Assembly: GCA_017507805.1 (NCBI GenBank) | Contig: JAFWAC010000012.1 | Span: 26,094-90,093 of the forward strand | DNA: 64,000 nucleotides | From: Clostridia bacterium | GTDB taxonomy: Bacteria > Bacillota > Clostridia > Oscillospirales > Acutalibacteraceae | Direction of reading: 5' to 3' | Shown: positions 13,088-13,814 of the stretch, piece after piece | How positions within the stretch are numbered: position 1 is the first letter of the stretch | Layout: the number at the start of each line of letters is the position of its first letter | Translations under genes and position numbers: made by a program | Notes under the pieces: model-generated | The model's input: the letters and a program-made list of their open reading frames with translations, nothing else | Databases searched by the model: none | Told to the model about the DNA's origin: nothing

Positions 13088-13116
13088 TTGACAATCGAAC
13101 AGATGTTCGTTATAAT
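13088..13116 (+). promoter_or_regulatory. Promoter with an embedded LexA (SOS) box
   Basis: TTGACA (13088-13093) and TATAAT (13111-13116) are both perfect, with a 17-base spacer. The spacer holds CGAACAGATGTTCG (13096-13109), a perfect inverted repeat matching the Gram-positive LexA/DinR pattern CGAAC-N4-GTTCG. LexA bound here would cover both promoter hexamers. It drives the SLOG-domain gene that starts 47 bases after the -10. Confidence 0.85.
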
Positions 13117-13163
13117 ATAATAAATTTTATTATTTTTATTTTTCAAAAAAGAGTGTGTAGATA

Positions 13164-13718
13164 ATGGTAACTGCCAATAAAAAGCAAGGGTACAAATGCT
13201 GTTTCACGGGGTACAGGCCCTCCAAATTTCCTTTCAGCTTAGACCGCAATAATAAAGAATACCAAAAATTTGATAATGCGCTTGTGGAGGAGCTTTCTGC
13301 CCTTTCGGCGCTCGGCTGTCACACCTTTTACAGCGGTATGGCGATGGGGTTTGACATAATTGCCGCCGAAACCGTGCTGCTTTTAAAGCAGATTTATTCA
13401 TATCCGCTTAAGCTTATATGTGTTGTCCCCTTTTCAGGTCAGGAAAATACATACACCGCATATTGGAGGGAAAGATACAACCGCGTTTTAGAGCTTTGTG
13501 ACGGGGTTGAGGTTTTATCGGATACATATACGCCCGGCTGTTACCAAAAGCGGAATATATATATGGTGGATAACAGTGATTTTGTCCTTACCTGGTATGA
13601 CGGGAAATCGGGCGGTACGAAAAATACAATAGATTATGCCGCGCGTCTCGGCAGGCAGATTTTCAACATCAACAAGGCGCACGATATTTCTGTTCAGACC
13701 TGCTTTGCCGAGCTGTGA
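13164..13718 (+). CDS. YpsA/DUF1273-like SLOG-domain protein
   Basis: A 184-residue protein of the YpsA (DUF1273) group in the SLOG superfamily, Rossmann-like domains thought to bind nucleotides or nucleotide-sugar ligands. Visible motifs: CCFTGYRPSKFPF at the N-terminus, the SGMAMGFDIIAAE glycine-rich motif, the VPFSGQ strand-end and GGTKNTIDYAARLG near the C-terminus. The ribosome binding site is weak (AAGAG). In Bacillus and Staphylococcus YpsA affects cell division; a DNA-damage role here is inferred only from the LexA box in its promoter. It stands alone, with no operon partner before the palindromic repeat. Confidence 0.85.
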   Translation: MVTANKKQGYKCCFTGYRPSKFPFSLDRNNKEYQKFDNALVEELSALSALGCHTFYSGMAMGFDIIAAETVLLLKQIYSYPLKLICVVPFSGQENTYTAYWRERYNRVLELCDGVEVLSDTYTPGCYQKRNIYMVDNSDFVLTWYDGKSGGTKNTIDYAARLGRQIFNINKAHDISVQTCFAEL

Positions 13719-13739: not shown

Positions 13740-13814
13740 GTAGGGAACGACCTGTGTGTCGTTCCTTTAAAATTGATCAATATCCAACGGAACGACACAC
13801 AGGTCGTTCCCTAC
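13740..13814. repeat. REP-like palindromic element (perfect 26-bp arms)
   Basis: The arms at 13740-13765 and 13789-13814 are exact reverse complements starting GTAGGGAACGACC and ending GGTCGTTCCCTAC, around a 23-base centre. The GTAGGG...CCCTAC ends are shared with the other dyads in this window. It lies between the SLOG gene and degV. It may also act as a transcript hairpin, but no T-run follows directly. Confidence 0.85.

Follow-up and report, generated by a model that had tools for sequence, protein, structure and literature searches.

A ypsA-like SLOG gene with a putative LexA operator inside its promoter in an Acutalibacteraceae genome

Introduction

Is the ypsA-like gene of this clostridial genome an SOS gene and, if so, what could its product do when DNA is damaged? 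The window (i.e., the whole stretch of 64,000 nucleotides that we analysed) carries a gene for a 184-aa YpsA-like protein, whose promoter contains a CGAAC-N4-GTTCG dyad resembling a LexA operator. The initial annotation proposed that LexA controls this gene and that its product could be a DNA-damage or phage-response effector, perhaps a division inhibitor, as YpsA overexpression suggests. We did not find a link between YpsA and LexA in the open-licence literature that we searched: the main text of two YpsA papers (PMC6459960, PMC7376506) does not contain "LexA", that of a C. difficile study (PMC4234289) contains neither "ypsA" nor "SLOG", and that of a gut meta-regulon study (PMC3998124) contains neither "COG4474" nor "YoqJ".

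Results

The ypsA promoter and its box

Direct reading bears out the proposed architecture. The dyad is located exactly between perfect -35 and -10 hexamers separated by 17 nt (13094-13110), with CGAACAGATGTTCG inside this spacer, i.e., operator and promoter overlap. The ATG, at 13164, is found 47 nt beyond TATAAT, and no strong Shine-Dalgarno sequence was seen before it. The features are the following:

13088..13093, + strand: -35 hexamer TTGACA (read directly; the perfect promoter was found again in the window scan)
13096..13109, + strand: putative LexA operator (SOS box) CGAACAGATGTTCG (dyad search; matrix from lexA promoters only; register shared with five further homologues)
13111..13116, + strand: -10 hexamer TATAAT (read directly)
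13164..13718, + strand: ypsA-like gene, encoding a 184-aa SLOG protein of Pfam family YpsA (ORF list; Pfam; profile match to 2NX2)
13740..13814, no strand assigned: 29-nt inverted repeat, 97%, 3' of ypsA, with arms GTAGGGAACGACC...GGTCGTTCCCTAC (repeat search)

CGAACAGATGTTCG is the sole match to the dyad with at most one mismatch in the window. Such a one-mismatch count is ordinary, the shuffled windows giving a mean of 1.27 and at least one match in 68 shuffles out of 100. The exact dyad is expected only 0.035 times per window and a TTGACA-17-TATAAT promoter 0.010 times (400 first-order-model windows); the real window contains two such perfect promoters, at 13088 and 19068. Thus, what is unusual about the ypsA dyad is its exactness and its position, not the one-mismatch count.

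Judging from its letters, the inverted repeat could form the end of the ypsA transcript. By eye, a palindrome of the same kind, with different letters, is present at the locus of another boxed gene described below (L001, 2345-2425), and the two are perhaps members of a dispersed palindromic element.

LexA and its boxes in the genome and in relatives

The absence of lexA from the genome had been named as an observation that would count against LexA control. The gene is present (C10): its product matches TIGR00498 with 169 bits, over the cut-off, and carries the LexA_DNA_bind and Peptidase_S24 domains (Pfam). Its promoter (TTGATA-17-TATAAT) has the same kind of box, AGAATAAATGTTCT, immediately behind the -10 hexamer, as the initial annotation had suggested checking. 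We also searched lexA in the genomes of 28 relatives, two of which (G212 and G180) are probably a single assembly; this gave 31 loci for comparison (our own and 30 others). Of these, 27 are clear orthologues, with identities of about 70-100%, and the remaining four are weaker S24 proteins. Accepting at most one mismatch to GAAC-N4-GTTC, 25 of the 27 clear orthologues, own lexA included, have a box in their promoter, mostly just behind the -10 hexamer and most commonly in the forms GAATAAATGTTCG and CGAATAAATGTTCG. Over all 31 loci, the four weak S24 proteins included, these 25 boxes compare with a shuffle mean of 1.06 and a maximum of 4 (200 shuffles).

We trained a palindromic matrix on 24 boxes taken from lexA promoters only, with which 20 of the 31 lexA loci score at least 19 bits. 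The ypsA box reaches 20.3 bits and is the best site of the window, the next one being about nine bits lower (11.1); sites of at least 20 bits are expected 0.0075 times per window. LexA is present, lexA promoters carry the same kind of box, and a matrix that was trained on these promoters picks the ypsA site: the proposal of a LexA-type box before ypsA holds on evidence that does not come from ypsA itself.

The genome assembly (2.34 Mb, 87.6% complete) contains two perfect CGAACN4GTTCG sites, each at a TTGACA-17-TATAAT promoter: in the spacer at ypsA and behind the -10 hexamer at the second gene. Genome-wide, the motif is not over-represented (two sites vs. 12 for the backwards control). Relaxed patterns are found at 7 places (GAACN4GTTC), 15 distinct places in 17 rows (GAAYRNNYGTTC), 7 places (RAACANNTGTTY), and 2 distinct places (RAAYAWWTGTTCG). 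With the patterns tried, only ypsA, lexA, and the gene of an approximately 60-aa membrane protein display a convincing promoter box; two further sites (L261, L259) are at ORF starts, where no promoter was seen. As the assembly is 87.6% complete, further LexA targets may be absent from it. The suggestion that recA would carry the same box did not hold: no LexA box was found within 1.4 kb upstream of own recA (L012), where the best site scores 0.5 bits with the lexA matrix. By eye, the ORF that precedes this recA is prmC-like; a boxless recA is unusual for an SOS system.

The arrangement with the box inside the promoter spacer occurs at 40 places in 35 of 398 family genomes, own ypsA included, vs. 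2 for the backwards control. Thirty of these places, own ypsA not being among them, were read as loci. Behind the box, Pfam identifies Y-family polymerases in five of them (L232, L236, L250, L251, L252) and RadC in four (L229, L247, L248, L249); the remaining 21 have no gene that can be linked to the SOS response, or no clear gene. Several of these other boxes stand in front of genes of the sigma-like/HTH, DUF6056, ComM-like, radical-SAM, or PDDEXK kinds; no clear gene follows the box in a genome of the same genus (L258), and no ORF was found behind two others (L246, L254). None of the 30 loci of this 398-genome search has a YpsA-like ORF behind the box. In three of them (L255, L256, L230), the protein is a fusion of Sigma-region-4 and HTH. 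In a relative (G203), a Y-family polymerase is also found behind a CGAACAATTGTTCT box.

The system thus shares with the LexA regulon of Firmicutes its operator type (GAAC-N4-GTTC), the promoter placement, the autoregulatory box of lexA and, in relatives, a Y-family polymerase target. It differs by its small set (lexA, the approximately 60-aa membrane protein, and ypsA, with the patterns tried) and by its boxless recA.

The box in front of other ypsA homologues

From 114 loci, of which 30 came from genome searches, 80 from named genomes, and 4 were viral, we collected the sequences upstream of ypsA homologues, 98 of them distinct. With the lexA matrix, eight of the 98 reach at least 11 bits (0.47 expected), six of them in register and two out of register (L107, L041); six reach at least 13 bits (0.17 expected), four of them in register. 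As a control on real DNA, 5 of 240 upstream regions of other ORFs (at least 200 aa, named loci) reach 11 bits. Three of these reach 13 bits (in L073, L085, and L089), each with a score identical to that of the ypsA box there, which is explained by divergent neighbours sharing this box; the divergent neighbour was observed for L073 and for the L085 genome, and is presumed for L089.

The register was defined by own ypsA promoter, and its recurrence was spotted before tabulation. Six homologues (own, L062, L073, L085, L089, L090) have the box at the identical spacer offset of a TTGAC(A/T)-17-TATAAT promoter, with flanks that vary among them; L085 and L089 are near-identical, so five of the six are independent. 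Near-boxes are found elsewhere in L026 and L107, and a partial site in L041. At most 9 of the 98 homologues have a plausible box. Plain one-mismatch counting gives 10 of 98 (5.3 expected, maximum of 11 in 50 shuffles) and is not significant alone. The register and the lexA-trained matrix are informative where this plain count was not.

In a tree of 97 homologues, whose bootstrap is not fully settled, the six box-bearers fall in one group of 24 rows (85/88) and across four lineages. The expected conservation in front of orthologues is thus found in part: the box recurs in the same register in five further homologues, and it is absent from 18 of the 24 rows of this closest clade, including the sisters and nearest relatives of the window gene (L058, L060; 58% identity). 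The ypsA box is either an old feature that was repeatedly lost or one that was repeatedly gained.

The YpsA-like protein and its neighbours

The assignment of the product to the YpsA-like SLOG proteins is confirmed, PF06908 (YpsA) matching with 82.6 bits for a cut-off of 27.7. A profile built from 11 homologues retrieves B. subtilis YpsA (2NX2; E 4.4e-16) as the only PDB sequence with E of at most 0.01. The product is predicted to be a soluble Rossmann-like SLOG protein. It retains the pocket motifs TGYRP, GxAxGFD, RN, and GGT, the GxD/E motif being G62-F63-D64. Ten residues are invariant across 63 sequences (G16, R18, G58, A60, G62, D64, R130, N131, G151, T152), which argues that the pocket is under constraint. 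Since the family pocket motifs are kept, the protein most likely binds a nucleotide-type ligand.

With B. subtilis YpsA, the window protein has in common its Pfam family, the GxD/E pocket motif, and the equivalent of P79-F80. It is divergent in that it scores well under the threshold set for PRK13660, the NCBI equivalog (45 of 165 bits), and in the residues required for filamentation. The YpsA papers list nine of these (G42, E44, W45, G53, E55, W87, P79, R111, G132; PMC6459960, PMC7376506). We mapped them through the 2NX2 alignment, in which the chain numbers are one higher than the numbering of the papers. Three are identical (G42, G53, and P79, here G51, G62, and P89) and six differ: E44, W45, R111, and G132 are replaced by H53, T54, T121, and F140, E55 by D64, and W87 by Y97.

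In the window, the neighbours of ypsA include a PASTA kinase-like protein and DegV (Pfam), as well as InfB- and NusA-like ORFs (by eye). No gpsB-like ORF was noticed by eye in the list of ORFs around ypsA; the Pfam scan covered the kinase-like and DegV ORFs. Among the 24 rows of the clade, whose upstream neighbours were scanned, nth (HhH-GPD and EndIII_4Fe-2S matches) is located directly upstream of ypsA in six (L076, L077, L078, L081, L083, L086). These six belong to one lineage and lack the LexA box, and the nth-ypsA adjacency is a single evolutionary event. In one other row (L061), ypsA is found just before uvrC. Of 39 downstream neighbours on the same strand, taken over all ypsA homologues, 14 carry HTH_3 (XRE-type), a possible ypsA-regulator pair.

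A second boxed gene encoding a small membrane protein

The second perfect box of the genome (C13:31158) precedes the gene of a 61-aa protein (L001:1501-1714). Homologues are present in 28 of 31 genomes searched, or 27 of 30 if G212 is the same assembly as G180, as the identical coordinates of their matches to this protein suggest. In all 28 loci (27 distinct proteins), the box is found 26-30 nt upstream of the start codon, the lowest score being 16.9. These proteins of 49-67 aa display a single N-terminal hydrophobic stretch followed by a basic tail, which suggests that the C-terminus would lie inside the cell. Neither Pfam (2 of 27 scanned) nor NCBIfam (3 of 27 scanned) gave a match.

The usual SOS division inhibitors are single-helix proteins: YneA, SosA, and SidA are short, with one membrane helix and an SOS box. 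It is the small boxed membrane protein, not the YpsA-like protein, that we liken to them, and in form only. By this analogy, it may serve as a division checkpoint protein of the SOS response, and it is a better candidate for a division inhibitor than the YpsA-like protein.

Discussion

We consider LexA control of the ypsA-like gene highly probable. Because its box is of the same kind as that of own lexA, the gene is very probably switched on upon DNA damage. Taken whole, the likely explanation of the locus is that of an SOS gene under LexA whose product would be an accessory damage effector with a nucleotide-type ligand, and not the main division inhibitor. LexA would occupy the operator in the promoter spacer and block RNA polymerase; upon DNA damage, RecA-stimulated self-cleavage of LexA would free the promoter. 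The gene, apparently a single-gene unit, would then be expressed together with lexA and the approximately 60-aa membrane protein, and its product would most likely sense or process a nucleotide that repair generates or sets free. For the protein itself, such an accessory function with a nucleotide ligand is a tentative assignment, which we would hold at somewhat under an even chance. A more specific version, suggested by the nth and uvrC neighbours in relatives, would have this SLOG protein recognise or make a nucleotide signal that couples excision repair to a cell-cycle or metabolic arrest; we consider it rather unlikely.

The dyad could instead serve a regulator other than LexA, or it could have arisen by chance in a strong promoter, and either would leave ypsA outside the SOS regulon. 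Most ypsA homologues indeed lack the box, and in 64 kb, dyads with one mismatch should turn up by chance alone. However, a matrix drawn from lexA promoters only still puts the ypsA site first in the window, at a score rarely expected by chance, the register is identical in five further genomes, and the same in-spacer arrangement precedes Y-family polymerase genes and radC elsewhere in the family. We consider this alternative very unlikely.

If the gene is LexA-controlled, its product could still act otherwise than as an accessory effector. As an SOS-induced division inhibitor, it would disturb FtsZ assembly and delay division during repair, in the manner of overproduced B. subtilis YpsA. According to PMC6459960 and PMC7376506, an excess of YpsA makes B. 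subtilis cells filamentous and hampers division in S. aureus; the window protein belongs to the same family and retains three of the nine residues listed. On the contrary, the other six differ, so that a YpsA-style inhibition is not indicated; among them is the E55 to D change, which is reported to abolish filamentation in B. subtilis. Furthermore, no gpsB-like ORF was noticed nearby, and the same genome has a separate LexA-boxed single-helix protein that fits this role better. The division-inhibitor proposal of the initial annotation is thus weak, and we regard it as improbable. Its other proposal, a phage-response effector, which we extend to phage defence under SOS induction, draws on a weak PADLOC match to ShosA (24 bits, E 5.1e-6, defence library) and on YoqJ, a YpsA-like protein encoded by a B. 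subtilis prophage. But this one match spans only 54 residues, the neighbouring ORFs look chromosomal, and the viral relatives are only four and distant (28-44% identity), so that we give this role a very small chance indeed.

In conclusion, the likely reading remains that of a LexA-controlled accessory effector. The ypsA-like gene is an addition to a known regulon, not a new kind of system. In the small core SOS set of these relatives, the conserved membrane protein of about 60 aa is an obvious candidate for a checkpoint protein. If the more specific version with a nucleotide signal is true, the SOS response would possess a nucleotide-signalling branch under LexA control. For the YpsA family, a promoter linked to DNA damage offers a concrete condition under which the function of one branch could be probed.
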